From the IMG/VR virus record IMGVR_UViG_3300020596_000020, positions 1 to 64,000 of that record: 64,000 nt of DNA; one strand, given 5' to 3'. Origin of the DNA: a virus. Position numbers and translations under genes: made by a program. Of this stretch, positions 3,822 through 63,854 are shown piece by piece (within the stretch, counting starts at the first letter, position 1; every line of letters starts with the position of its first letter). The notes under the pieces were generated by a model. The model was not told where the DNA came from and ran no database searches. It saw nothing but the letters and a program-made list of their open reading frames with translations.

Positions 3822-4580
3822 TTATTCTTCTTTCCAATAGCGTTTTGCGACAATGTTGGCAACGTGACCTTTGGAAACGCCAAACTCGATTGAAAGCTGT
3901 CGATAGCTAATCCGAGTTGGATCCGCTTGAGGCAAGTGTCGCGTGTGATCATAACATAGTCGAATTTCGGTTACCTGTTCACGTGTCAGACAAGCGTTCG
4001 GGTGATTTTCAGCTGCTTGATGCATGCCATTTCGTTCACCACTCACAGCTTCGCCTATACGTTTACGTGTCACCTCAGAATGTAACTTTCCATATGCGTG
4101 ATGTTTTGCACCACTCATGGATTCACTTTTCTGACGTTTCCATTCGTCTGAATGAGTATGTCCAAAGAAGGGATTGGAATTTCCCATCATCATTTCGCTG
4201 ATTTCAGGTCTTTTCTTCCCATACATTGGGTTGTTGCTCCCTGATCTCGCCTCTATCCATTCGCGCGAAGGTTTCCATCCGGTGGCTCCTTCGCCACCGA
4301 CAGTGAGATTTGCTCCCCAGGATTCAGACTCAGAGCTTTCGTGTGTCTTGAACTTCGCGATGAAACGGATTTCTTCTGTGAAGGCGTATGCTTCATCTTT
4401 TGTAGCAAGCACGACTTCGCGTCGTCGGCCGTATTTGCGAGTGATATTTTTCCAATAGACGTTACGTTCAGATCTTTGAACCCGTGAAAGTGTACCCTTC
4501 CCGACATAAAATGGTCGAGGCGTATTTTCAAGCGTCCAATCCACGTAGACAAAGAAGATGTTATTCCTTGACAGGCTCAT
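3822..4580 (-). CDS. GIY-YIG homing endonuclease with NUMOD3 motifs
   Basis: 252 aa from the ATG at 4578-4580, which overlaps the last 20 nt of groEL. The N-terminus has the GIY-YIG core as FFVYVDW followed by PFYVGKG. The middle contains several NUMOD3-like DNA-binding repeats (NNPMYGKKRPE, GNSNPFFGHTHS, HHAYGKLHSE), and the C-terminus has a helix-turn-helix (YRQLSIEFGVSKGHVANI). This is the architecture of a free-standing phage homing endonuclease that cuts an allele lacking it. It is closely similar to the plus-strand genes at 6267 and 20427. The track frame extends upstream inside groEL, but homology begins only at MSLSRNN. Confidence 0.9.
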   Translation of the reverse strand: MSLSRNNIFFVYVDWTLENTPRPFYVGKGTLSRVQRSERNVYWKNITRKYGRRREVVLATKDEAYAFTEEIRFIAKFKTHESSESESWGANLTVGGEGATGWKPSREWIEARSGSNNPMYGKKRPEISEMMMGNSNPFFGHTHSDEWKRQKSESMSGAKHHAYGKLHSEVTRKRIGEAVSGERNGMHQAAENHPNACLTREQVTEIRLCYDHTRHLPQADPTRISYRQLSIEFGVSKGHVANIVAKRYWKEE

Positions 4581-6231
4581 GCACAATTGCGTCCAAAAGT
4601 AGGAAAATGCCGGCGACGCTAGAAGCGTTCCGGAAGGCGCATCGCGACACCTTGACGGGGTCGATGATGCCTGCCTTGCGAAGATCCTTGATCTCACCGA
4701 CGGCAGCGTCCCAGCCGACGTTTGCGGTCGGATCGCTTCGATACGCCAAACTGTTCATCCTGTCACAGACGACGTCGGGTGATTGTCCCGCGTTCTCGAC
4801 GATGCGTCGAAGAGGAGCCTTGCAGGCGTCGAAGACAGCCTTCCATCCACAAGCAACGGCACCCCCGTCGGCGAGGATCTCCTTGACATCTTCGTTGTAC
4901 ATCTGAAGATCGTGTTGGATCTTGAAGAGTGCTGCGCCGCCACCTGGGACAACGCCTTCTTCAAGCGCTGCTTTTGCAGCGTGAAGTGCGTCTTCCAGCC
5001 TGTACTTGCGTTCAACCAGTTCGAGCTCGGTGGCGCCACCGACGCGCACGATGGCCGCACCACTGGAGAGCTTGGCGAGGCGTCGACGAACGGCGTCTGT
5101 TTCTTCCTTCGAAAGGGTGGCGTCGTCGATCTGGCCGCGCAGTTCTGTAATGCGCTCAGCAACACGATCGCTAGCGTCTGCGCGACCGACGATGGTGGTC
5201 ACCTTGGAGTCGACAACCACCTTCTTTGCGTGACCGACATGAATCAGCTTGGTCTCGTCGACCTTGCGACCACTGGAATGAGTGGGATGCTCGCCGCCGA
5301 CCAGCGCGATGAGATCGCGCATCTGAGCGTCGCGGTCGGAGCCAGCCCCGGGGAGTTTGACCGCAACGACACGCAGATTCGCTTGAGCTCGGTTGAGCAC
5401 GAGGCCTTGCATGGCATCCCCATCGATCTCGTCGGCGACGATAAGCAGCGGCTTCTGAGCCTTGTTGCAGTCCTCGAGCAGCGGGATGAGCTCCTTTAAG
5501 GAGGACAGCTTACGATCGGTGATGAGGACGACACAATCCTCGTAAGATGCGCGCATCTTCTCCTGATCTGTGACAAAGTACGGGCTGAGATAGCCTCGGT
5601 CAAAGCGGAGGCCTTCAACAATCTCGAGAGTCGTCGTCGCCGACCGCGCGTTCTCGACAGCTACGACTCCGTCGACGCCGGTCTTGTGCACCGCACGCGC
5701 AACGAGCTCACCGATCTCGACGTCTCCGTTGGCACTGATCGTCGCGATGTCTCTCAGCGCCTCTTCGGTGTTGATGGGCTCCGCGATACTCGCGAGCTCT
5801 TTCAAGACACGCGCGGTCGCCGCGTCCAGTCCTCGCTTGATGTCCGAAGGCTCCATGCCGGCTGCGGCGTACTTGATGACGCTGTTGACGAGCGCGCCGG
5901 TGAGCACACTAGCTGTCGTAGTGCCGTCACCGGCCTCGTCGTTGGTGCGACTAGCAGCCTCACGAACGAGCTGAGCTCCCATACGTTCGGCGGGATCGAC
6001 GGGATCGACCGCCTTGCTGACCGTGACGCCGTCCTTGGTGACGACAGGCGACTCGCCCTCCTCACCCTGGATGATGACGCACTTGCCACGCGGACCCATC
6101 GTGGCACCCACGGTGTCCACTGCGAGGTCTAGACCCCTCTTCAGGGGTCCTACCGCGTCCTTGCCACGCAGGATGACCGAACGCCCAACGCGCGGCCGGC
6201 CAGATTCCTTCTTGAACATTCCGTCGAACAT
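4561..6231 (-). CDS. groEL: GroEL-type chaperonin (Hsp60)
   Basis: 556 aa, about the length of bacterial GroEL. It carries the chaperonin signatures TVGATMGPRGK, the ATP-binding NDEAGDGTTTASVL, the LEDALHAAKAALEEGVVPGGGAAL region with the hydrolysis-linked Asp of EDALH, and GIIDPVKVSRCAFRNAS near the end. The equatorial, intermediate and apical domains all appear present. It lacks the Gly-Gly-Met tail and ends HEPVKE. No GroES-like gene is visible in the window, so it either works with host GroES or alone, as reported for some phage chaperonins. Its likely job is folding virion or replication proteins. Homing endonuclease genes sit at both ends. Confidence 0.97.
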   Translation of the reverse strand: MFDGMFKKESGRPRVGRSVILRGKDAVGPLKRGLDLAVDTVGATMGPRGKCVIIQGEEGESPVVTKDGVTVSKAVDPVDPAERMGAQLVREAASRTNDEAGDGTTTASVLTGALVNSVIKYAAAGMEPSDIKRGLDAATARVLKELASIAEPINTEEALRDIATISANGDVEIGELVARAVHKTGVDGVVAVENARSATTTLEIVEGLRFDRGYLSPYFVTDQEKMRASYEDCVVLITDRKLSSLKELIPLLEDCNKAQKPLLIVADEIDGDAMQGLVLNRAQANLRVVAVKLPGAGSDRDAQMRDLIALVGGEHPTHSSGRKVDETKLIHVGHAKKVVVDSKVTTIVGRADASDRVAERITELRGQIDDATLSKEETDAVRRRLAKLSSGAAIVRVGGATELELVERKYRLEDALHAAKAALEEGVVPGGGAALFKIQHDLQMYNEDVKEILADGGAVACGWKAVFDACKAPLRRIVENAGQSPDVVCDRMNSLAYRSDPTANVGWDAAVGEIKDLRKAGIIDPVKVSRCAFRNASSVAGIFLLLDAIVHEPVKE

Positions 6232-41763: not shown

Positions 41764-41978
41764 GCGACCTTCTTCCAGTAAACAGCGATGGACACACCAC
41801 GATGGAACAGATCGTCCCTCTGAATGGTGAGATGACCCCTCTGAAGGGAAAACCTCTCGGATGTGATCTCGAAGTACTCATAGATCGAGTGTCCAGGTAT
41901 GAGCGAGCGTTGAAGACTGACTATCCAAAAGAGGCGATCTTCGGCTTCCCACAGGTCACCAATCTTCACAATGTTCAA
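41760..41978 (-). CDS. Small protein of the GxLW group
   Basis: 72 aa, N-terminus VKIGDLWEAEDRLFWIVSLQ. Tandem neighbour of 41554, overlapping it, and also overlapping the epimerase stop by 4 nt. The two adjacent members suggest local duplication of this small domain. Confidence 0.6.
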   Translation of the reverse strand: MNIVKIGDLWEAEDRLFWIVSLQRSLIPGHSIYEYFEITSERFSLQRGHLTIQRDDLFHRGVSIAVYWKKVA

Positions 41979-42910
41979 AACAACGGCGACTCGAGTGCCC
42001 AGAGACGTGTCTCCTCAAGCCCAGGCCAGAAGTCGGTAAGCGGCTTGTAGCCGAGCACTCTCTGACAGGCCGAGATGTCCGCCTGGGTCGCACGCACGTC
42101 GCCGGCGCGCCAGTCGGCATGCTTGACACGTGACTGGATCTCAGGGTGTTTGGAGGCGAAGTGCTTGAGAATCTGCTTATTACTGACGCTCCCACCGGTG
42201 CCAGCGTTGAAGGCTTCGCCACGAAGACGACCTTGGTGAGCGGCCACTCGCACGAAGATGTCCACGACGTTGTCCACATGCGTCATGTCACGTGTCTGTG
42301 AGCCGTCTCCGTCGCTTCGAAGCTCTCCGTCATGCTTGATTGCGTGCAGCCATGACGAGACGACCGTCCCGTACGCGCCATTAGCAAGCTGACGCGGGCC
42401 GAAAACATTAAAGGGACGAACGCACGCAGTGTCCATGTCGTACAGATCCGCGAACATGACACAGTAGTCCTCGCCGATCATCTTCTGAAGAGCGTAGGGC
42501 GACTTCGGGTCGCGAGGCGCGCTCTCCTTAGTAGGAAGCTGCTGCGCGCCGCCGTAGACTGAGCTAGACGACGTGAAGACGAACCTTCCGACCACACCGC
42601 GGCACGCTTCCAATAGTTTCACGGTGTTGCCGACGTTCTCGTCGTTCGTCTCAGCCGGGTGCTCCACCGAGTAGGACACACGAGGACGTGCTGCGAGGTG
42701 GAACACGGTGTCAAACTGTGACTGCTTGATGAAGCGAAGCACGCTCGGATCGGCGTAGTTGCTGTACAGCGGGACCGCTCCAGTCGGAACGAACTCGACG
42801 CGACCGTTCGAAAGATCATCGACCACCACAACCTGGTGGCCCTCTTTGACGAGGCGTTCAGCGAGGTGAGAACCGATGAAGCCCGCGCCGCCCGTTACCA
42901 AAGTTTTCAT
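41975..42910 (-). CDS. NAD-dependent sugar epimerase/dehydratase (extended SDR)
   Basis: 311 aa. Rossmann motif TGGAGFIGSHLAERL, active-site SSSSVYGG and YALQKMIGE (YxxxK), and substrate region RPFNVFGPRQ, the layout of UDP-glucose 4-epimerase-like extended SDRs. It interconverts nucleotide sugars; the exact substrate is uncertain. With the 58062 and 62481 genes it points to phage-encoded surface-glycan changes. Confidence 0.9.
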   Translation of the reverse strand: MKTLVTGGAGFIGSHLAERLVKEGHQVVVVDDLSNGRVEFVPTGAVPLYSNYADPSVLRFIKQSQFDTVFHLAARPRVSYSVEHPAETNDENVGNTVKLLEACRGVVGRFVFTSSSSVYGGAQQLPTKESAPRDPKSPYALQKMIGEDYCVMFADLYDMDTACVRPFNVFGPRQLANGAYGTVVSSWLHAIKHDGELRSDGDGSQTRDMTHVDNVVDIFVRVAAHQGRLRGEAFNAGTGGSVSNKQILKHFASKHPEIQSRVKHADWRAGDVRATQADISACQRVLGYKPLTDFWPGLEETRLWALESPLF

Positions 42911-46097: not shown

Positions 46098-46304
46098 TCA
46101 CGGGCGAACGATCTCCCACCCGAAATTTTCCCACTCGCTCAGGTCCCAGTCAAACTTTGAGATGGACCCGGCCGGCCGACGATCGTCTCCCGCGTCCTCG
46201 ATGACTAGCCCCCACTGGCCGTAGTCATCGATGATGACGAACGACGCTCGTGTAAACGCGAACACGAGGTCGGTGTAGAGGATAACCGTGCCCTTGAGAC
46301 TCAC
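46098..46304 (-). CDS. Small beta-rich protein
   Basis: 68 aa (MSLKGTVILYTDLVFAFTRA), beta-rich and Trp-rich with DLSEWENFGWEIVRP. Overlaps the DnaE C-half stop by 4 nt. Function unknown; similar in size to the GxVY group. Confidence 0.6.
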   Translation of the reverse strand: MSLKGTVILYTDLVFAFTRASFVIIDDYGQWGLVIEDAGDDRRPAGSISKFDWDLSEWENFGWEIVRP

Positions 46305-48448
46305 AGATCGGTTCCGTCAACCTCTCGCATGTCACGGAGCGAGCAACTGAAACCGAGTTTGTCTTTCTTCACTCTCACGACGTAACAAGCGTACTTCTTG
46401 AGCTCGCTAATCTGATGCTCGGCGGTGCTCCACACGAACATGCGATGGATGGCGCCGTCCGAGCCGTAGCACGCTAATTGGAAGAAGTTGTTGCCTGTGC
46501 GCGCGGTCTTTTTCTTACCGTCAGACAGTACCATCCAATACGTTCCGTACTTCGCAGTGGTGCATTCCTCGAGAGGCGGGATGTCGTGCGCCTTGAGCTG
46601 CATGCGTAAATCATCGTCGAGCAACGCATCGGGGTCGATAGAGCCATAGAGCTCGATCTGATTCTTCACGATCTCATCACGCGTCCAGTCAGTCAACGTC
46701 TTCGACTCCTCGATGAGCTCGGCGAGTCGGCGAGTGTGATACTCGGGGTCCTTTTTCAAGCGTTTCTTGAGTTCGGCCTGACCATCGACAATGACATGAT
46801 GTAGCTGCTTGTAGTTCTCGAACGTTCTCCCCGGTCCGACGATTTGCATAGAGTCGAACGCCCCGAGTGTCACAAGTGCCCCGAGCGATTTCGAATTAAA
46901 CTTACTGTGTCGCCACGTTCCGTTCTCATCCCAGAGCAGGTCCTCCAACTTACGATACGGTCGTTTCACCAGCAGCTCGTTCACAGCCGAGGTTCCGACG
47001 CCGGTGACCGTGAGGAAAGACGGGTAGAAGGTTCGGTTGTCAGACGCGATCTCCCATTCGCGATTCGAGCGGTTGATGTCAACCTTTGCGACGTCGTAAC
47101 CCATCGCCTTGATCTCGGCCAGCGCACGTCGACGCGAATCAGGATCACCGAGCATGGATTCGACGTACGAGCAGAGCCATTCCGGCTCGTAGTAAGTCAT
47201 CAACCAGGCACACTGATACGAGATATATCCGTACGAGTACGAGTGGGCGCGGTTGAAACCGTAGGCGGCGAACGCCTGTAGGTCGTCGTAGAGCAACTCC
47301 GCCTTTGCGCGTGGATAGCCTTTGGCCTCGGCGCCGTCCACGAACTTCTCGTGCAGCTCGTCGGTCAGTGTCTTCCCCTTGGATGCGTCCTTGGTAGTGC
47401 GTTTCAGGATGGCCTTGCGCAGCTTGTCTGCCTCGACCTCGCTGAAGCCTGAGAGCTTCATTGAAATCTCCATGATCTGTTCTTGATAGATCACGAACCC
47501 CATCGTATCTTCAAGACATTCGTTGACCGCGGCGTGACCGTAGTCCTTCTTCACACCATCACGACGTGCTTTGATGTAGAGCTTGTCGACGTCGGCAGCT
47601 AACGGTCCGGGTCGGTAGATCGCGGTCGCGGCTGCCAGGTCGTGAACGCTACGAGGGTCAAGGTCAGTGATGAATCGCTGCGTGCTTGGATTCGTGAACT
47701 GAAAGATGCCGGCAAAGCGAGACTCACGGAAGACATGGTTGAACACGTCGCTCAGGTTCGGGTCGATGCGACTCGGCGTCAGATTATCGTCGTACCACTC
47801 CTTCACCTGCGCAAAGGTTGGGTTTCGGATCCCGCTGTGACGCTTCAGGATACGACGCACGCACCGCTCAATGATACGTAACGTGTCGAGGCCGAGGAGG
47901 TCGTACTTGACTAAGCCGTACGGGCTGAGACCCTTCATCGCCATGCCTTCACTCCAAGGCGTCTGTAGGTCTCCGCGGACGCTGATGAGTGGCATGATGC
48001 CGTCAGGGTCGTCGTGAACGATGATGCCGCCGGCATGCTTGCCGACAGCCTTCGTCTGCCGACCAAGGATCTTCACGTCGTTGTCGATCGCCGGGTACTT
48101 CTTCATCAGAGCGCGGAAAGCCGGCGAGTGCTCCATGCAGCCCTCGTACGTCAGCTGAACAGAACCCTTGGTGTCGTCGCCGGTATGAAGATGCGGCTTC
48201 ACCTCCTGATCGAGATTCTTGGTGGCGTCGTTGACCTCGTTGAACTCGAGCCCGTGCAGCTTGGACACGTCCTTCACGAGCGACTTCATCTGCAGACCGT
48301 TGAAGTTGCTGATGGGGACGATCGTCTTCTCGCCGAACTCCTTCTTTAGCAGGTCGATGACTTTGTCGCGATCAGAGACGTCGCAGTTGTGTGTCCCAAT
48401 CCAACGATCTTCTTTCATAAAAGAAGAAATTCGATAACTTTTACCCAC
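46301..48448 (-). CDS. dnaE: DNA polymerase III alpha, C-terminal half with split-intein C-fragment
   Basis: 715 aa, GTG start with an AGGAG ribosome site. Residues 1-21 (MGKSYRISSFMKEDRWIGTH plus N) are the intein C-fragment ending in His-Asn. The C-extein starts at Cys22 and continues CDVSDRDKVIDLLKKEFGEK, which matches the region just after PDxD in DnaE. Later DnaE parts are clear: LVKYDLLGLDTLRIIERC (third catalytic Asp), PGPLAADVDKLYIKARRDGV, GFVIYQEQIMEISMKLSGFS and FNRAHSYSYGYISYQCAWLM. Trans-splicing to the 49450 product is needed to build the active site. An endonuclease gene lies between the halves. Confidence 0.95.
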   Translation of the reverse strand: MGKSYRISSFMKEDRWIGTHNCDVSDRDKVIDLLKKEFGEKTIVPISNFNGLQMKSLVKDVSKLHGLEFNEVNDATKNLDQEVKPHLHTGDDTKGSVQLTYEGCMEHSPAFRALMKKYPAIDNDVKILGRQTKAVGKHAGGIIVHDDPDGIMPLISVRGDLQTPWSEGMAMKGLSPYGLVKYDLLGLDTLRIIERCVRRILKRHSGIRNPTFAQVKEWYDDNLTPSRIDPNLSDVFNHVFRESRFAGIFQFTNPSTQRFITDLDPRSVHDLAAATAIYRPGPLAADVDKLYIKARRDGVKKDYGHAAVNECLEDTMGFVIYQEQIMEISMKLSGFSEVEADKLRKAILKRTTKDASKGKTLTDELHEKFVDGAEAKGYPRAKAELLYDDLQAFAAYGFNRAHSYSYGYISYQCAWLMTYYEPEWLCSYVESMLGDPDSRRRALAEIKAMGYDVAKVDINRSNREWEIASDNRTFYPSFLTVTGVGTSAVNELLVKRPYRKLEDLLWDENGTWRHSKFNSKSLGALVTLGAFDSMQIVGPGRTFENYKQLHHVIVDGQAELKKRLKKDPEYHTRRLAELIEESKTLTDWTRDEIVKNQIELYGSIDPDALLDDDLRMQLKAHDIPPLEECTTAKYGTYWMVLSDGKKKTARTGNNFFQLACYGSDGAIHRMFVWSTAEHQISELKKYACYVVRVKKDKLGFSCSLRDMREVDGTDL
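48386..48448 (-). other. Split-intein C-fragment (about 21 aa)
   Basis: Encodes the first 21 residues of the DnaE C-half, ending GTHN before Cys+1. The His-Asn pair is the intein's block G, and Cys+1 belongs to the native DnaE sequence. The fragment is shorter than usual C-fragments (about 30-40 aa) because the block F-like segment lies in the other half. Confidence 0.75.
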
Positions 48449-49466
48449 GCTTAATCTCCTGTGACAGACGATCTATTTCGTGTTTGAAATTGACTTTTGT
48501 GGCTGCTTCCCAACATATCAACACGCGACAACCAAGTTTACTCTCTATACGACGTACACGAGATTCGTTTTTAAGACGAATCTGTCCTGCTGTCATACCG
48601 GAATGAAGGAGTTTATCGGCAGTGTAGACGCTTGGATTTGCATGCCAATAGTCGCCATAATACTCAACTGCACAGTCTCGATCTGGAAGGTAAAGATCGA
48701 GACTGTAACACCAACCTTCTTCTCTATTTGAGACAAAGAACTGTCTATTCATCCAAGAATATGATTTCTCGTTCTCAAATTCCTTAAGAAGAGCGTAAAT
48801 AAATTCTTCTTCTTTTGCTGACGAACCGGTCGTATGACTGTTAGGCCATTCAACGTACGGATTCACATTAGCAAACCAATTATTTTTCCCATGCGTTGAG
48901 AGCATGTTTGCTTTATGCAGATCGCGCACATTGCTAGACATCATTGGGTACGAGACACCCAATCGTTGTTCACATGTAGCTTTGTATTTCGCTTGAATCA
49001 ATGTTGACTGAAGTGGTCTATTGACACCATGACGATATCTCATAGTTGCTGTGAATTTATCTTGATATTCGTCAGTGCTATAAAAGGCTGATTTTAGACA
49101 AGATTCACAAAGAAATGTTCTCTTATGCTGACGACGTGCTGTGTTCCCCTCCATTACGTGGAGTTTTCCGCATGTTGGACACTTGAAATTGAATGCCAAA
49201 GAACCTAAAGCATACTTTTTCGCATTCTCATCGACGAAATGACATTTTTCGTCATCAAGCACGAATTCCACGTTGTTGATCAGTAACCCGGTAGTCATCA
49301 CACGCGTAGAAACTGCGTGCTTCACATTTTCGTAGCTGAACCATGGTGTTTCGAACAGTCCGCTAAACTGTTTTCTGAGCAGATTTATTTCGCGCGAGGA
49401 TTCGTCTTTGAGTTGATACCCGTGTTTCGCAGCTAACACTGACGAGAAGTTACTTCGATACTTCAT
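48441..49466 (-). CDS. Vsr-like (EDxHD) homing endonuclease between the DnaE halves
   Basis: 341 aa from ATG at 49464-49466, overlapping the DnaE N-half by 17 nt and the C-half start by 8 nt. An N-terminal zinc finger (CPTCGKLHVM, then FLCESCLK) is followed by a DNA-binding middle and a Vsr-like nuclease core: SLDLYLPDRDCAVEYYGDYWH, then RLKNESRVRRIESKLGCRVL. Such EDxHD endonucleases are known beside split inteins in fractured phage and marine viral genes, including DnaE. Its position exactly at the split fits that arrangement. Confidence 0.85.
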   Translation of the reverse strand: MKYRSNFSSVLAAKHGYQLKDESSREINLLRKQFSGLFETPWFSYENVKHAVSTRVMTTGLLINNVEFVLDDEKCHFVDENAKKYALGSLAFNFKCPTCGKLHVMEGNTARRQHKRTFLCESCLKSAFYSTDEYQDKFTATMRYRHGVNRPLQSTLIQAKYKATCEQRLGVSYPMMSSNVRDLHKANMLSTHGKNNWFANVNPYVEWPNSHTTGSSAKEEEFIYALLKEFENEKSYSWMNRQFFVSNREEGWCYSLDLYLPDRDCAVEYYGDYWHANPSVYTADKLLHSGMTAGQIRLKNESRVRRIESKLGCRVLICWEAATKVNFKHEIDRLSQEIKRG

Positions 49467-51399
49467 CAACGTCTAAATAGTCATTGACTTTGATAATCAC
49501 GTCACCCAAACGTGGATCACTTTCATCCACGTAGACATCGAACGGAATGACACGAAAAGTGTGAGAATGTTCGACCTCAATGTCCACTAACGTTCGTATA
49601 CCATGCAAAATTATGATACCAACCACGACGCAATTCTCAGATCCCTTGAGAGAGTGCCCGATTAACAGTTGTTTGGCACGAACAACTGTGTTATCATCAA
49701 GTACCATCTTGTGCTCGGCGTTACACACAATCGTTCCATAGCATGAATCTTGTTTCACTAGTAGTTCGTAGATTATCTCATCTTTTCTAGCAGATCTTGC
49801 GTTCACGGTCAAGACTTTACGATGAGCGCCTTCGATATCGATCACAACGTCGTTTTTTTCAACTGTCTCGATGCGCTTATAACTTCCATCTGTCATCATG
49901 ATCAAATGACGAGCATCTAAACAATCGATGTCTGGAACGTCAGTGCGAGCCAACGACATGAAGCGGGCGAAGATGAGATTGTTAGAAACAGGATCGACGT
50001 CTGTGATGCCGAGCACGAAGTTGACGAGGCTGCCGGCTCCGGACCCGCGACCCGGACCGACGAGACAATCCTTCTTGGCAACATCAAGGATCGCCTTCAG
50101 AGTGAGGAAGTAAATGGAGTTGTCGAGCTTCTTGATGACGGACAGCTCGTTCTTGAGTCGCGCGACGTAGGCCGGTAGATGGGCCAACCGCTTCGCGCGC
50201 ATGCCCTCCTTGCAACTCTCCACGAGCGTCTGGAACGGCGTCATGTCGGGGCGAACGCCGAAGCTAGGAAGCTTCACGCTCGTGTCGATGGTCACGTCGC
50301 CGATGACGTCGTGCGCGACGTGCCAGGCGTTCTCGATGGACTCGGCTACGACCGCGTCGTCGTAGAACGCGTGACCCTCCTTGTACAGGTTGTACGCATC
50401 CCACATCTGATCCGCGTTCTTTGGATAGAGCTCGCACTTGAGCTGCTTCACGTCAGCCGGGATGGAGTCCGGACCGAGCTCCGAACCGCCGCGCCCCATG
50501 CGGCCAAGCAGCTTGTACACCTCGCGTGCGCGCCACAGATCGGGGCTACAGTAGTGCGAGTCAGCCGTAGCGACCAACTTGACGCCGTTCGACTTTGCGA
50601 ACTCAAGCAGCACACGGTTGGTGAGGTGTTGAGGCGCTAAGCGGTTGAACTGGATCTCAGCGAACACGTTGTCGCGCCCGACGGCGTCCGTGAGTCTGTC
50701 GAACTCGTTGCCGACGGCTCGCATAACGGCGTCGCGCTTCCCAGGTTCGTCCAGGATATCTGGGGTCAACTCGTCGAACGACTTACCGGCGAACTGAGAG
50801 TACGTCGCCCAAGATGGCACGCCGGCAACGCAGGCCGTAGACACTACGACGTCCTCGCCATGTTCCTTCAGCATTGCCGAGTCGATGCGCGGGAAGCGGT
50901 AATAACCCTCGCGCGCACTGCGAGACACCAAGCGAAAGATGTTCTCGAGGCCCTTCTGCGACTTAGGAAGCAGCACGAGGTGGTGGCGACGCTCGACCGG
51001 GTCGAGGTATTTGCCGTTACGCTTGGACGCGTCCTCGTCTTCCACGGCGACGCCCGTGTCATCTTCGTCATTGTCCGGACGCTTGACTTTGGCAGCCTCG
51101 CGCTCTTCCTTGCGCACTTGGTCACGCGTGACTTTCGCTGCGGCCCAGTCCTTCAGACTCGGGATGTAGTATGCTTCGACCCCGGGAATGAACTTCATGG
51201 GTCGACCGTTTTTATTCAACTCCTGTGTTTTTTGGTAGCATTCAGGGAACGAGTTCATGTTTCCATGATTCGTCATAGCCATCGAGCTCATGCCATTGTC
51301 AGCAGCGAACTGGATGTGATCTCCTCCATCACCGAAGCCGTCGTAGATGCTTTTCCCATCGTGTGCGTGCAAGTTCGCGAACTTCTTCGGATTTACCAT
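49450..51399 (-). CDS. dnaE: DNA polymerase III alpha, N-terminal half with split-intein N-fragment
   Basis: 649 aa. Residues 1-492 are the N-extein: a PHP domain (NLHAHDGKSIYDG, MTNHGNMNSFPE, TADSHYCSP) and the polymerase palm/fingers start (GPGRGSGAGSLVNFVLGITD), ending DVPDID. Residue 493 is Cys, opening the intein N-fragment (CLDARHLIMMTDG). Block B-like CNAEHKMVLDDNTVV and block F-like TLVDIEVEHSHTFRV follow, to residue 649. The break falls in the PDxDxD motif, so both halves are inactive until joined by protein trans-splicing with 46301. Confidence 0.95.
   Translation of the reverse strand: MVNPKKFANLHAHDGKSIYDGFGDGGDHIQFAADNGMSSMAMTNHGNMNSFPECYQKTQELNKNGRPMKFIPGVEAYYIPSLKDWAAAKVTRDQVRKEEREAAKVKRPDNDEDDTGVAVEDEDASKRNGKYLDPVERRHHLVLLPKSQKGLENIFRLVSRSAREGYYRFPRIDSAMLKEHGEDVVVSTACVAGVPSWATYSQFAGKSFDELTPDILDEPGKRDAVMRAVGNEFDRLTDAVGRDNVFAEIQFNRLAPQHLTNRVLLEFAKSNGVKLVATADSHYCSPDLWRAREVYKLLGRMGRGGSELGPDSIPADVKQLKCELYPKNADQMWDAYNLYKEGHAFYDDAVVAESIENAWHVAHDVIGDVTIDTSVKLPSFGVRPDMTPFQTLVESCKEGMRAKRLAHLPAYVARLKNELSVIKKLDNSIYFLTLKAILDVAKKDCLVGPGRGSGAGSLVNFVLGITDVDPVSNNLIFARFMSLARTDVPDIDCLDARHLIMMTDGSYKRIETVEKNDVVIDIEGAHRKVLTVNARSARKDEIIYELLVKQDSCYGTIVCNAEHKMVLDDNTVVRAKQLLIGHSLKGSENCVVVGIIILHGIRTLVDIEVEHSHTFRVIPFDVYVDESDPRLGDVIIKVNDYLDVDEVSK
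49453..49923 (-). other. Split-intein N-fragment (157 aa)
   Basis: Begins with the catalytic Cys1 at codon 49921-49923 after PDID. Carries block A, a block B with the conserved His (CNAEH), and near its end a block F-like TLVDIEVEHSHTFRV followed by about 30 more residues. Having block F in the N-fragment is unusual for natural split inteins. Confidence 0.8.
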
Positions 51400-51439: not shown

Positions 51440-51513
51440 TGGAGCCACCGACCGGACTTGAACCGGTATAACGAAGATACAAACTTCGGGTCCTGCCATT
51501 AAACGACAGTGGC
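51440..51513 (-). tRNA. tRNA-Thr (anticodon TGT)
   Basis: 74 nt including encoded CCA. Acceptor GCCACTG/CGGTGGC (one G-U), D-stem GTTT/GGAC, anticodon stem CGAAG/CTTCG with loop TTTGTAT (anticodon TGT, U33 and A37 present), T-arm ACCGG-TTCAAGT-CCGGT. G1-C72 and C2-G71 fit threonine identity. It reads ACA codons. Located just upstream of the DnaE N-half. Confidence 0.92.
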
Positions 51514-53134: not shown

Positions 53135-53196
53135 GTCTTCAATCTACACGAATGTTGAAGACAACCTATCTCTTCACAATTCTCAACACAAAAGGA

Positions 53197-53229
53197 AACA
53201 CCCGGAAGCCATGAGGCCGTCCGGGTGTT
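53197..53229 (-). terminator. Intrinsic terminator after the GH5 gene
   Basis: A perfect 10-bp stem (AACACCCGGA/TCCGGGTGTT) with a 13-nt loop is followed on the minus strand by TTTCCTTTTGTG. It lies 20 bp past the stop of the 53249 gene, so it should end that transcript. Confidence 0.75.
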
Positions 53230-53248
53230 AAGCGAAGCGTAAGAAAGC

Positions 53249-55687
53249 TTAGTAAAGAATACCGCCGCTCGTCGGTACGTATTTCTTTGGGCCGTAATCC
53301 CAACAGAAACCGACCGTTGCTGAAGATGTGTTCGCAGCAATTGTGCCAACGCCGATGTTGTTGTTCAAAGGCGTTACCACGGTCTTGCCAGTGGCTGTTG
53401 GATTTGGGAAGATCGCTCCCCACACACCAGAAACACCGCGCAGCCTGCTGTCATTCAAGTAAATGATCATCCCTTTCCACGACAGCGGCACAGGGTTTTT
53501 GTTGGTGTAGGTGTAAACTTTACACCCGCCACTACCCCAATCGTACGTCTTCACTGCGGTGACAACGAGAGGGAGGCAACCCTTTGCGCTGACTGTTCCC
53601 TTGACACTTGGACACAGATCGTTGACGTCGAGCACCCCATCGCCGTCAGTGTCGGTCGTCGGAGAAACGTATGTGCACGACTGACTGAGTGTGGGTGTGC
53701 CAGAGCATACAGTCGGATTCGAGGTCACCGTTCGCGTTTGCGTTCCGTTAGATTGGCAAACGTTCCAAGTCGAGTACGTGAACGTGCAAACAGGAGGAAC
53801 ATATGTACACGACTGTGTGAGCGACGCAGACGTCCCAACACAACCGACCGGCAACGAAGTGACGGTTCGCGTCTGCGTTTCCGTTGACGAACACGATGAC
53901 CACGTTGAGTATGTGAAGACACACGACGGAGGAGGCAAAGGCGCGCTGTCAGTCATCCAACCCGCGTTCATGAAGGGCAGCAAGCTGTTGATGAGATCAT
54001 ATTTGGTGCCGGTCGTCCCCACGTCGTTGTCCCAGTGACTACCAGGCTTCTCGATGAACGTCACCGGGAACCCGCGAGTCTTCAAGATGTTCATATTGTT
54101 ACGCACGTTGGCGATCGCGTAGTACGTGATGGTATCGCCGGTGTGAGCAAGGTGAGCGATGTTGAGCTTCCAGCTCGCGGTCGTGGACGCCGTCATGGCA
54201 GTCACGCTCGGATTGGTGTTCTCGAAGATGAGTCCAGAGAACAAATTTGCGTTCTTGAACGCGAGCTCGTACCCGATGTCACCGCCGGACGAGTATCCTC
54301 CGAGAATCACGCGACGCGGATCGACGTTAAAATGTGTCTTCATGTTCGCGATGGCGGCGAGGATCTTCGCACCGTCGGTCGCGTAGTTGGACCAACAAGC
54401 TCCCTCACGACCACCGACAGCAAGTGTGATCCAGTTCTGTGCGCCGCCAGGCGACACCATCCAGGCGTCGTACTGCGCCTGTCCACCGCATCCGTGGAGC
54501 CAGACGAGTAGTGAGATCGGAGTGGCGTGCGTCGCGTCGTAACTCGCTGGGACGTACGCCCAGTTGGTCTGACCGCTGTTGGTCGTAAAGACTGTGCTCT
54601 TCGTGTAGGCGATGGGGTTTGTCACCGGCGACGTTGTGGTCGGCGACAAAGTAAGGAACGGTGTGAGCCAGGCTGTCTGTGGGCGATCGACGCCTGCTTT
54701 CGGCTCGAGCGTGAGCATATACTCACCCCACCACGGTCCAGCAGCCCACCATGCCCAGCCAACGAGCACGTCAGAGTTGACGGTCGCGTACGTGAGGAAG
54801 TCCGTCACAGCAGCCTTACACGTCGACGTGTTCGGTGTTCCGATCTCGCCGACCCAGATCTTCTTGCCGTTCTGTCGAGCCCATGCCACGACTGCGGTCA
54901 TGCGAGTCGATCCAATAGTGGAGTTGACGCAATCTGTGCCGCCGCCACTACCGTCACTGTCGAAGTAGTTGTGCACCTCGAAGATCGAGTTGTTACCGCT
55001 GTCCACGTACTTGAGAAGCGCGACGGAGTTGGCCGTCCCGTACCAGGTCGCAGTCCAGCTGTGAGCGCCTGACCACGCGTTGCCAGGCACCGACACCACA
55101 TTCGTCGCTCCCGTGGCTCGAATGGCCGCGGTGGCCGCGTTGGCAGTGATCACCCACTGCTCGGTGGGCATGTCGTGCGGCTCGTTGACGAGGCCGAACA
55201 CAACCTTGAGATTGGACTTGTACTTGACGGCGAGTCGCGACCAGAGGTTCGCGAACACACTGGAGGGGACTTGTGTCGTGCCTACAACGCCATCATAGTA
55301 ACGGGCGAAGTTGTGCGGATTAAGAACGACCGTCAAACCTTTCGACGTCGCGTAGACGACGATGGCGTTGAGATCAGTCTCGTACGTCGGCACAAACGCG
55401 CCGTTGGCTGTCGGCTGCAGACGTTCCCATAAAAAACCGACACGAACCGTGTTCATGCCCTTACTAGCGAAATAGTCGACTTCGCTTGTTGTCGGCCAAA
55501 CATAATCGGTGCCCTTGACGCCAGGCTTTGCAGTACCAAACTCGGCTCCAGCGAGATTGATGCCGTGCATCGCGGGAAGACTGACTTCAGTCTTGGGGAA
55601 GTCGCTGCGACCGATATGCGGGTAACAGCCGACGGTTATCAGCACGGTGCTGACGATAAGAATGAGATATCGGATGATCTTGTTCAT
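53249..55687 (-). CDS. Secreted GH5 glycanase-esterase multidomain protein
   Basis: 812 aa. N-terminal signal ending near Cys21 (LILIVSTVLITVGC). Residues about 35-350 are a GH5 glycoside hydrolase, with acid/base Glu in GLVNEPHD (E169) and nucleophile Glu in WVGEIGTP (E281). Residues about 360-590 form an alpha/beta-hydrolase esterase (GCGG loop and GGYSSGGD, Ser466). Two thrombospondin type-1-like repeats follow (about 600-690; CVFTYSTWSSC and CTFTYSTWNVC), then a calcium type-3 repeat (DTDGDGVLDVNDLCP) and a CBM2-like C-terminus. This is a carbohydrate-attacking secreted enzyme rarely seen in a phage. Terminator follows. Confidence 0.9.
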   Translation of the reverse strand: MNKIIRYLILIVSTVLITVGCYPHIGRSDFPKTEVSLPAMHGINLAGAEFGTAKPGVKGTDYVWPTTSEVDYFASKGMNTVRVGFLWERLQPTANGAFVPTYETDLNAIVVYATSKGLTVVLNPHNFARYYDGVVGTTQVPSSVFANLWSRLAVKYKSNLKVVFGLVNEPHDMPTEQWVITANAATAAIRATGATNVVSVPGNAWSGAHSWTATWYGTANSVALLKYVDSGNNSIFEVHNYFDSDGSGGGTDCVNSTIGSTRMTAVVAWARQNGKKIWVGEIGTPNTSTCKAAVTDFLTYATVNSDVLVGWAWWAAGPWWGEYMLTLEPKAGVDRPQTAWLTPFLTLSPTTTSPVTNPIAYTKSTVFTTNSGQTNWAYVPASYDATHATPISLLVWLHGCGGQAQYDAWMVSPGGAQNWITLAVGGREGACWSNYATDGAKILAAIANMKTHFNVDPRRVILGGYSSGGDIGYELAFKNANLFSGLIFENTNPSVTAMTASTTASWKLNIAHLAHTGDTITYYAIANVRNNMNILKTRGFPVTFIEKPGSHWDNDVGTTGTKYDLINSLLPFMNAGWMTDSAPLPPPSCVFTYSTWSSCSSTETQTRTVTSLPVGCVGTSASLTQSCTYVPPVCTFTYSTWNVCQSNGTQTRTVTSNPTVCSGTPTLSQSCTYVSPTTDTDGDGVLDVNDLCPSVKGTVSAKGCLPLVVTAVKTYDWGSGGCKVYTYTNKNPVPLSWKGMIIYLNDSRLRGVSGVWGAIFPNPTATGKTVVTPLNNNIGVGTIAANTSSATVGFCWDYGPKKYVPTSGGILY

Positions 55688-56241
55688 ATATTTTCCTTAC
55701 GGTCGCTGAGACCTTCTTCGACGGCAAACTCGATCTCACGTAACTCGCGGTCGAGATCTTCGTCTGAAGTATCAAGAAAGATATGACGTGTCTTCAGGCG
55801 CGGCGCGCACTGCTTGTAGAGGGTGTCGATCGCCGTGATCTGGTCCTCTTTGATGGTGATATCATCTTCGTCGACCCGGCCAACGTACCCCTGTAGTCGG
55901 GTACACACGACGATAAGCGCGTTCATGCGTGCGTACGCTTCATCGAGCTGCGCGACGACATCAGGGTCGGTCGGGCGGCCGAAGTGTTTCGAGTAGACAA
56001 TCTCAGATGGAAAGTTGCGGTCAAGAATGACCGATGTGTCAGTCTGCTCAAGGAAGTCCGCCAGCGTCGTCTCGCCAAAACGGAGGAAGGGCAGAAACTG
56101 CGACCGGTCGCTCATGAAGAACTTCTTCTGGACTTGCGCCTTAAAGATCGGAATGTCGAGACTGGCAGAGAGAGCCTTAGCAATCTCAGTTTTTCCGACC
56201 CTCTCCGTCCCTTCTAGGATAATGATTCTCTGTTTGCTCAT
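55684..56241 (-). CDS. Thymidylate kinase-like P-loop kinase
   Basis: 185 aa. P-loop EGTERVGKTEIAKAL, DR motif VILDRNFPSEIVYSKHFG, and a helical lid region. The layout matches dTMP kinase or deoxynucleoside kinase. With Tdk and ThyA it would make dTDP from dTMP. The start overlaps the GH5 gene start by 4 nt, so the kinase stop and GH5 ATG are coupled. Confidence 0.75.
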   Translation of the reverse strand: MSKQRIIILEGTERVGKTEIAKALSASLDIPIFKAQVQKKFFMSDRSQFLPFLRFGETTLADFLEQTDTSVILDRNFPSEIVYSKHFGRPTDPDVVAQLDEAYARMNALIVVCTRLQGYVGRVDEDDITIKEDQITAIDTLYKQCAPRLKTRHIFLDTSDEDLDRELREIEFAVEEGLSDRKENI

Positions 56242-58061: not shown

Positions 58062-59072
58062 TCACTTCAATCTCTCTTTCATCCACTTGATCGTCTTCTC
58101 AAGCCCGTCGCGCAGTGACACAGTTGGCCTATACCCCAATGTGATACGGGCTAGCGCCAAGCTCGGCTTGCGAACCTTTGGATCGTCGACTGGCAGAGGC
58201 TCGTTGACGATGATTAGTCGCGGAAACCACTCCGACAATGCCTCGGCGAGCTCGATGATCTTGAACTCACCGTCGTTACCGAGATTGACTGGCGCGCTCG
58301 GCGGCTTCGGCGTCTCCCCCAGTTTGCGTAGCCCAGTGACGAGGTCGCTGACGTAGCAGAAGCTCCTCGTTTGGTCGCCGGCGCCGTACACTGTGAGCGG
58401 CTCGCCGCGGATCGCCTGACGGATGAAGTTGCTAACTACACGCCCATCATCTGGGTCCATACGCGGACCATAAGTGTTGAAGATGCGCGCAACACGGACA
58501 TTCGTGTTTGCTTGGAGGAACTCGTAGCAGAGCGTCTCGGCACAACGCTTACCTTCGTCGTAGCAAGAGCGAGGACCCCAAGTGTTGACGTTACCCCAAT
58601 ATGCTTCGGTCTGTGGGTGCTCGAGCGGGTCCCCGTAGATCTCGCTCGTCGAGGCTTGCACGAAAGCGGCTTTGTGCGCTCGAGCAACCGCGAGCAAATT
58701 GGCTGTGCCCACCACGTTTGTCATGATCGTGCTGAAACCGTCAGTCTGATAGGCACGCGGCGAAGCTGGGCAAGCAAGGTTGTAGACGACGTCGTAAGTT
58801 GTGAGCACTCGACCGTTGTCACGGGCTGTCGAGGTGGTCACCGACGCGGACGTGACGTCGCCATAGTTTACCTGCATGAGCTTCTCAGGTTCGCCGTTGA
58901 AGTCGGATGCGTTGTCAAACTCATCTAGAAACTTGATGTTCTCAGGGTTCCCCGTGCTCATGTTATCGATCACGTCAACAAACCACCCAGAGACCACGAG
59001 ACTCTCCACGAGGTGCGAACCGATGAAGCCGGCTCCGCCGGCCACGAGCGCATATTTTCGACCTAGATGCAT
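58062..59072 (-). CDS. UDP-glucuronate decarboxylase-like (UDP-xylose synthase) SDR
   Basis: 336 aa from ATG at 59070-59072; an upstream TTG is less likely. Rossmann AGGAGFIGSHLVESL, VVYNLACPASPRAYQTD, STSEIYGDPLEHPQTE, NTWGPRSCYDEGKRCAE with YxxxK, and TRSFCYVSDLV are typical of UXS enzymes, which convert UDP-glucuronate to UDP-xylose. It pairs well with the UDP-sugar dehydrogenase at 62481. Confidence 0.9.
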   Translation of the reverse strand: MHLGRKYALVAGGAGFIGSHLVESLVVSGWFVDVIDNMSTGNPENIKFLDEFDNASDFNGEPEKLMQVNYGDVTSASVTTSTARDNGRVLTTYDVVYNLACPASPRAYQTDGFSTIMTNVVGTANLLAVARAHKAAFVQASTSEIYGDPLEHPQTEAYWGNVNTWGPRSCYDEGKRCAETLCYEFLQANTNVRVARIFNTYGPRMDPDDGRVVSNFIRQAIRGEPLTVYGAGDQTRSFCYVSDLVTGLRKLGETPKPPSAPVNLGNDGEFKIIELAEALSEWFPRLIIVNEPLPVDDPKVRKPSLALARITLGYRPTVSLRDGLEKTIKWMKERLK

Positions 59073-59142
59073 ACAGATCAATGTACTGCGTCGTTTACAA
59101 GAGGTTACTCTGCTCGATGACTAGGTTAGATTGTAGATTCCG

Positions 59143-62480: not shown

Positions 62481-63782
62481 TTAGATCGTGACGAGAATGA
62501 TGTCTTTTCGTAGCTTTGACGCGTCAACGACGCCTTTGAGGTCCAAAAGAACGCCGTTCGGTGCAAGACACACGTTTGCACGGTCTTCAAGTGTGTCGAG
62601 GTACGTTGCGTGCGGCACTGCCACGACGAGCGCGTCTAGATTTCGTTTTTCGAACACAGCAACACATGACTCTTTTGTGCCTGTAAACTTGTATGTGTCG
62701 TCGCTTGGATCAATCGCCAACGGGTTATAGGTGATGGAAGCGATCGGATCATGCACACTGACTTCACATCCACGGGCGCGCAAGGATTTCACTAGGTCAA
62801 CAACTTTGCTGTTACGCGTGTCCTTCACACCTTTCTTGAACGTGTAACCCAGCACCCCTACTTTGGCGCCGCGGTAGAAACCGCGTGTGGAAGCCTCGAG
62901 CGAGCTGATGAGCCGTTTCGCGACGTGTTTCGGCATGTGCTCATTGACACGACGCGCCAAAGACGCGAGTCTAAGCGGCTCACCGACGCTATCGGCGAGC
63001 ATCATGAGGTAGTACGGGTCGACGCCGACGCAGTGACCGCCGACGAGTCCTGGCTTAAACTTGAGAAAGTTCCACTTCGTCCCAGCTGCTTCAAGCACGT
63101 CCTTCGTGTTGATATCGACCTTGTTGAAAAGCTTGGCGAGTTCGTTTACAAGTGCAATGTTGACATCGCGTTGGATGTTCTCGATGAGCTTCGCGGCTTC
63201 GGCGACGCGTATGGTGGGCGCCTTGTGAATCTCCGTCACCTCACTATACACGGCCGCGACGCGTTCGAGCGTCTCCGCGTCCTCGCCTGCGACGATCTTG
63301 ACAACTTTCTCGAGTGTGTGCTCGACATCGCCAGGGTTAATGCGCTTCGGCGAGTAACCTAATCTGAAGTCTTTTCGGTCGAGCTTCGACGCCAGAACAG
63401 GAGCACAGATGTCCTCCGTCACGCCAGGGAAGACCGTTGACTCGTAAACGACGACGTCGCCTTTTTTGAGCATTGTGGCGACGATCTCAGACGCTCTCAG
63501 TAGAGGACTGAAATCTGGGGACTTGTCGTCGTTGATCGGAGTGGGAACGGCGACGATGTAAAAGGTCGTCTCCGCCATGTCGGTGAAGTTGCACGCGAAC
63601 TTCAGAGTCGTGTTGCAGAGTTTCTCAAGTGGAGTCTCGCCTGTCCGATCGTGCCCACGCATGAGTTCGGCGATCCGCACAGTATCGACGTCGTACCCGA
63701 TGACGTCAGGAAACTTGTGCGCGAGCGCTAGCGCCAACGAGAGCCCGACGTAACCAAGACCAATAACCGCGATCCGTTCCAT
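62481..63782 (-). CDS. Nucleotide-sugar dehydrogenase (TviB/WbpA-like)
   Basis: 433 aa from ATG at 63780-63782 with an AAGGAG site. NAD motif VIGLGYVGLSLALAL, the middle FSPLLRASEIVATMLKKGDV and STVFPGVTED, and the active Cys in LVGGHCVGVDPYYL are typical of UDP-sugar 6-dehydrogenases of the Vi/O-antigen type. It oxidises UDP-GlcNAc, UDP-GalNAc or UDP-glucose to a uronate. With the 58062 decarboxylase and 41975 epimerase it suggests the phage makes unusual surface sugars. Confidence 0.93.
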   Translation of the reverse strand: MERIAVIGLGYVGLSLALALAHKFPDVIGYDVDTVRIAELMRGHDRTGETPLEKLCNTTLKFACNFTDMAETTFYIVAVPTPINDDKSPDFSPLLRASEIVATMLKKGDVVVYESTVFPGVTEDICAPVLASKLDRKDFRLGYSPKRINPGDVEHTLEKVVKIVAGEDAETLERVAAVYSEVTEIHKAPTIRVAEAAKLIENIQRDVNIALVNELAKLFNKVDINTKDVLEAAGTKWNFLKFKPGLVGGHCVGVDPYYLMMLADSVGEPLRLASLARRVNEHMPKHVAKRLISSLEASTRGFYRGAKVGVLGYTFKKGVKDTRNSKVVDLVKSLRARGCEVSVHDPIASITYNPLAIDPSDDTYKFTGTKESCVAVFEKRNLDALVVAVPHATYLDTLEDRANVCLAPNGVLLDLKGVVDASKLRKDIILVTI

Positions 63783-63854
63783 TAATACTCCTTGACGAGG
63801 TTGAAATACAGCGAGACGACAAGTGTTATTAAAGAACAACGACGCCGATTATAT

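Follow-up and report, generated by a model that had tools for sequence, protein, structure and literature searches.

We analysed a 64,000-nucleotide stretch of viral DNA (positions 1 to 64,000 of IMG/VR record IMGVR_UViG_3300020596_000020, hereafter the window) that carries a gene combining a glycoside hydrolase family 5 (GH5) domain with an esterase behind a lipoprotein signal. The gene lies at 53249–55687 on the minus strand and, as judged by sequence comparison, belongs to the phage. Our preferred reading, which we hold as moderately probable, is that it makes a bifunctional, surface-anchored lipoprotein (glycanase/esterase) that would degrade polysaccharide during infection. Among its phage copies the esterase appears to be the constant core, and the GH5 domain has probably been exchanged at least once. 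The original prediction, which gave no strand, had described a single gene of 812 amino acids, and all 812 codons are indeed open. The encoded parts are, in order, the lipoprotein signal, GH5, the esterase, two type-1-like thrombospondin repeats, a type-3 repeat and an end with a CBM2-like fold.

Domain architecture of the GH5-esterase protein

The GH5 domain covers residues 35–345 (54653–55585, minus strand). Pfam Cellulase (PF00150) matches residues 58–316 with an E-value of 1.9e-49 (169 bits against a cut-off of 23.5), and the top Protein Data Bank (PDB) sequence match is Cel5A 9p41 (5.6e-85), which upholds the predicted GH5 hydrolase. The structure model of the full-length protein was poor (pLDDT 64.4) and was used for the GH5 part only; a fold search on the GH5 model placed XacCel5A first (Z 36.0, rmsd 2.2, 297 aligned residues). 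The eight residues that we take to be the GH5 active-site positions are all present (R82, H125, N168, E169, H239, Y241, E281 and W313), with Glu169 and Glu281 read as the acid/base and the nucleophile. The nearest solved structures are XacCel5A and the endoglucanases of the T. aurantiacus and A. niger type, presumably GH5_5 enzymes, and the solved-structure enzymes of this branch bear the name endo-beta-1,4-glucanases.

The esterase domain (residues 358–577; 53957–54616, minus strand) was recognised by profile matches and by the Ser-Asp-His triad of the alpha/beta-hydrolases. It is of the polyhydroxybutyrate depolymerase type, or CE1-like, and the triad (Ser466, Asp518, His551) is invariant in all five members of the family described below. 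As a single sequence it matches an NCBIfam polyhydroxyalkanoate (PHA) depolymerase model at 3.5e-10, far below the cut-offs (39.8 of 150 bits for NF050058 and 24.3 of 107.85 bits for TIGR01840). The name PHA depolymerase was dropped because both cut-offs were missed. A profile of the five members matches LC-Est1C (2e-10) and 8daj; together with the triad, these matches sustain the esterase that had been predicted.

Residues 1–21 (55625–55687, minus strand) form a signal peptide with a hydrophobic core and the lipobox ITVGC, which ends at Cys21 and agrees with the pattern rule for the bacterial lipobox. The same pattern search found a lipobox signal in four of the five members (the window protein, L039, L040 and L041) and no signal peptide in L042, which would therefore be unable to act as a lipoprotein. 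Since the window protein has a lipoprotein signal with Cys21, it is probably lipid-anchored at the host surface rather than freely secreted; the predicted signal peptide was correct, and the term "secreted" is better replaced by "tethered".

Support for the C-terminal part is mixed. The two type-1-like repeats (residues 589–629 and 634–673; 53669–53923, minus strand) are visible in the translation as two copies of about 40 amino acids with the spacing W..C...QTR; Pfam TSP_1 has no match in the 812-residue protein, so they are best called a motif only. The type-3 calcium repeat (residues 679–693; 53609–53653, minus strand) shows the textbook motif DxDxDGxxDxxDxCP and falls below the Pfam TSP_3 cut-off (0.0018; 18.4 of 25 bits). 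The CBM2-like domain spans residues 700–812 (53252–53590, minus strand). When the last 118 residues were modelled alone (pLDDT 77), the top Foldseek matches were 3ndy_E (2.1e-4) and 6qfs (3.1e-4), chains that we take to be CBM2, with moderate TM scores of about 0.5. The VIA Z of 8.5 for this domain borders on common arrangements, as diphtheria toxin chains reach 7.3, and Pfam CBM2 gave no match in the C-terminal end up to an E-value of 1. The predicted CBM2-like end is supported by the modelled fold and has no counterpart in the Pfam search. CBM2 modules bind cellulose or chitin, and the titles of the matched Foldseek entries agree with this. A terminator of the gene's own had also been proposed: folding of 53170–53248 gives a stem-loop followed by a T-rich tail at 53197–53229 (minus strand), 3' of the gene, which is a probable terminator, albeit one that is not among the predictions of a consensus terminator scan.

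Phage ownership and genomic neighbourhood

The source record (81,644 bases) encodes a phage-type DNA polymerase, helicases, UvsX, a ligase, an exonuclease, a ribonucleotide reductase and a thymidylate synthase, and the genes flanking the GH5-esterase gene in the window include those for nucleotide metabolism, a DNA methyltransferase, an epimerase and DNA polymerase. Relatives of the gene were found in four further IMG/VR contigs. A 27.6 kb contig (L020/L021) is collinear with the window and has the gene at the same place, and a 121 kb contig (G001) has many genes in common with the window, a terminase and a relative of the gene. Directly upstream lies a thymidylate-kinase-like gene (55684–56241, minus strand; PHROG 761, 4e-13) that overlaps the gene start by 4 bases in the window; the overlap measures 4 bases in the 27.6 kb contig and 11 bases in G001 (the pair being seen in L020 and L019), so that it occurs in three of the five members.

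The gene is assigned to the phage because it has kin in other viral contigs, two of which share its upstream gene. A chimera or bacterial contaminant, the outcome that would have undone the original prediction, is excluded by this overlap in the window and two contigs and by the collinearity with L020/L021. With regard to a role as an auxiliary metabolic gene, it lies in a viral genome, with phage replication genes around it and kin in the terminase-bearing G001. L040 and L041 have neither a kinase-like neighbour nor shared synteny, which counts against our preferred reading of the gene. The relatives without the kinase-like neighbour lie on viral contigs that measure 428 kb and 233 kb, and the one on the 233 kb contig lacks the GH5 domain.

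Terminase searches found none in G000, G009 and G011 and a weak match only in G010 (8.5e-8); the viral status of G010 and G011 is mainly by IMG/VR assignment. Further viral members may have been missed because the scans require a short peptide pattern match; scans of the viral set with queries A1, A3 and A4 returned the same four contigs or fewer. The full protein had two matches among 50,697 records of isolated phages, each confined to the GH5 part; the esterase domain had no match among isolated phages. Six of 72,556 plasmid records matched, none with 80% cover, at places within residues 30–339, that is in the GH5 domain.

Several other features of the phage were observed. A second thymidylate-kinase-like gene occurs in the same phage record (L007, 1148–1795; both PHROG 761). 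Within 46301–51399, DNA polymerase III alpha is distributed over two open reading frames (ORFs): an intein-like start (CLDARHLIMM after PDID) closes the first, an intein-like end (THN, followed by CDVSDRDK) opens the second, and a homing endonuclease ORF (48441–49469) lies between the halves. The same polymerase is a single ORF of about 1205 amino acids in G001, and the arrangement in the window resembles a split intein whose endonuclease stands free. A tRNA-Thr gene (51440–51513) lies shortly upstream of the first half of the polymerase. A GroEL gene (4561–6231; PHROG, 9.6e-135) is adjoined by a homing-endonuclease-like ORF (3822–4697). The window also encodes a UDP-glucose dehydrogenase (62481–63839) and two nucleotide-sugar epimerase-like genes (58062–59081 and 41975–42910), which suggests that the phage also alters surface sugars.

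Origin of the domains and probable exchange of the GH5 part

A genome scan with patterns located in the GH5 domain yielded 38 bacterial loci, and GH5 kin were found in many bacterial phyla. None of the 38 loci has the esterase in the same ORF as the GH5. At a limit of 1e-15 the esterase profile matched 6 of 329 Myxococcota genomes, compared with 0 of 1378 genomes in five other phyla pooled (349 Pseudomonadota, 294 Planctomycetota, 151 Armatimonadota, 296 in the phylum of Gracilimonas and 288 in that of a Kiritimatiellales genome), where the phylum names of the genome sets follow the titles of their centre genomes. At the looser limit of 1e-5 it matched in 7 of 20 GH5-kin genomes, the best being a Polyangiaceae genome (2.7e-34). 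High-scoring esterase kin are therefore confined to Myxococcota among the phyla searched, and the bacterial origin raised by the original prediction is supported.

Only one of the six Myxococcota matches is close. This is L092, an esterase lipoprotein of genome G325 that is 51% identical to the window's esterase and is the closest cellular esterase found. It differs from the window protein in having no GH5, no type-3 repeat and no CBM2 match. A lipobox-like start was read from its translation at an internal methionine; the pattern search, which covered the longer start only, found none. In a tree of 20 rows, from which matches above an E-value of 1e-5 and the copies L001, L008, L019, L020 and L101 were left out, the phage esterases, all five of them, cluster together, and L092 is their sister (96/96 and 96/94). 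By these comparisons the esterase core has a relative in a lipoprotein esterase of myxobacteria. A myxobacterial origin is likely given the profile counts, and the host is perhaps a myxobacterium as well. A C-terminal query (A4) matched 26 of 235 Myxococcota genomes, but this says little on the host because the listed places mostly cover little beyond the type-3 repeat stretch; GC content picked out no single host.

The two enzymatic domains differ in their histories. Across all five phage members the esterases are 60–69% identical, which marks the esterase as the constant core of these copies. The window GH5 is 44–48% identical to those of the other three phage members that have one (L039, L040 and L042), which are 55–58% identical among themselves, and 56–57% identical to two Myxococcota GH5s (L043/L044). 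For the window and L039, identity is 48% in the GH5 domain versus 68% in the esterase. In a GH5 tree of 48 rows (L001, L008, L019 and L020 dropped as copies) the window joins the two Myxococcota rows (90/82), and the other three phage GH5s lie in another, starred branch (100/100) with a Mycobacterium row and five further bacterial rows. A single clade of the four phage GH5s was rejected by the approximately unbiased (AU) test (p 1.5e-7, at a cost of 113 log units).

The simplest reading is that at least one exchange of the GH5 domain probably took place inside an inherited gene, because the window and L020 share neighbour genes with identities of up to 82–88%; the window's phage is closely related to that of one of the other three GH5 carriers. 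Three points weigh against it. The group submitted to the AU test was chosen after the pairwise identities had been seen, the join of the window with the Myxococcota GH5s is not starred, and other genes of the window–L020 pair are only 41–58% identical. Identities among the flanking genes of that pair span about 41–88%, so the GH5 divergence is not odd by itself.

Proposed function and comparison with known viral glycanases

Under our preferred reading the host would export the protein and lipidate Cys21, and the protein would then sit on the envelope of the infected cell, probably facing outward. There the CBM2-like domain would hold the polymer, the esterase would remove ester groups from the polysaccharide, and the GH5 domain would cut its chain, a beta-1,4-glucan (or mannan). 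The infected cell would probably gain sugar, or else matrix polysaccharide would be cleared for the spread of progeny. A more tentative extension, which we regard as less likely than not, likens the protein to a modular tailspike that works outside the virion: a surface enzyme held by a lipid anchor, whose esterase core stays constant and whose glycanase domain can be exchanged and so retuned to the polysaccharide around the current host, probably a myxobacterium.

GH5 genes were also observed in other phages. LUCX_247 of the Xanthomonas jumbo phage LucasX (L005, 6013–8142), annotated as hypothetical, is a GH5 protein with two Cellulase stretches (Pfam, 3.8e-38), probably separated by an insert. 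The phage GH5 genes of L002 (5650–7476, beside a terminase gene) and L004 (1539–3362) lack a signal peptide and contain a long insert; both likely encode virion-associated glucanases. Record MT835628 (L006; faecal, unverified) holds two GH5 ORFs that are about 33–35% identical to the window GH5.

The best surviving alternative, though an unlikely one, is that the protein belongs to the virion, where it would act as a depolymerase at the tail and cleave polysaccharide of the host or the matrix during entry. Such a role has been suggested for phage S6, which needs cellulose as its first receptor and whose gp095 is a GH5 enzyme (PMC9544554). The GH5 genes of L002 to L004, which lack signal peptides (that of L002 lies beside the terminase and near the portal), and the missing signal peptide of L042 agree with such a role. 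However, lipoprotein signals occur in the other four members, no known structural genes lie beside the gene in the window (40 ORFs of its record scanned against PHROGs matched no family named as structural), and the window GH5 is far from those of L002–L004 in the tree. It is improbable that the gene is a bacterial cargo, active but not evolved to serve the phage; bacterial kin exist for both the GH5 and the esterase domain, yet five divergent phage copies keep the esterase triad and three have the same upstream gene. Superinfection exclusion, with the enzymes stripping receptor polysaccharide to block adsorption, seems more improbable still, as the lipoproteins known for that role, Ltp of TP-J34 (PMC3952083) and that of T5 (PMC9586334), are not described as glycanases in the portions of those papers available.

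Virus glycoside hydrolases are usually catalogued as single auxiliary genes; the gene raises the question of whether the infected cell bears on its surface an entire phage-made apparatus of glycanase, esterase and binding module whose cutting domain is swapped. If so, phage control over the breakdown of matrix or plant polymers would be placed at the cell surface. The gene is also a starting point in the search for Myxococcota phages.

Such proteins had been called unusual in phages, and this applies to the fusion and not to GH5 itself, which is known from several viruses (PMC6786970, PMC10465536, PMC9544554). The fusion, the lipid anchor and the domain exchange were not found in print among titles and abstract starts of the open-licence literature, in searches that probed GH5_5 poorly; this is weak evidence of absence because only open-licence papers were included, and the fusion of GH5 with an esterase seems new. 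Compared by description only, a virus-encoded GH5 endomannanase from permafrost soils was active after expression (Emerson 2018, PMC6786970), and the available part of that account mentions no esterase fusion or lipid anchor. Among the rumen virus GH5 and GH9 cellulases (PMC10465536), the GH5 gene is flanked by viral genes and its product is active on carboxymethylcellulose; again compared by description only, that gene measures 1155 bp and is too short for an architecture like that in the window. Mangrove soil viruses, too, are listed as having endoglucanase genes (PMC6460857). The GH32 enzymes of Bacillus phages, for which secretability was predicted, are likewise phage glycoside hydrolases and differ by family, being predicted levan enzymes (PMC4595243). 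XacCel5A of Xanthomonas (5hnn, 4w7u) shares the GH5 fold (Z 35–36, about 39% identity), but its matched chains consist of the GH5 domain alone. The gp095 protein of the Erwinia amylovora phage S6 degrades a carboxylated cellulose model substrate and differs from the window protein in that it is suggested to attach to the phage particle (PMC9544554).
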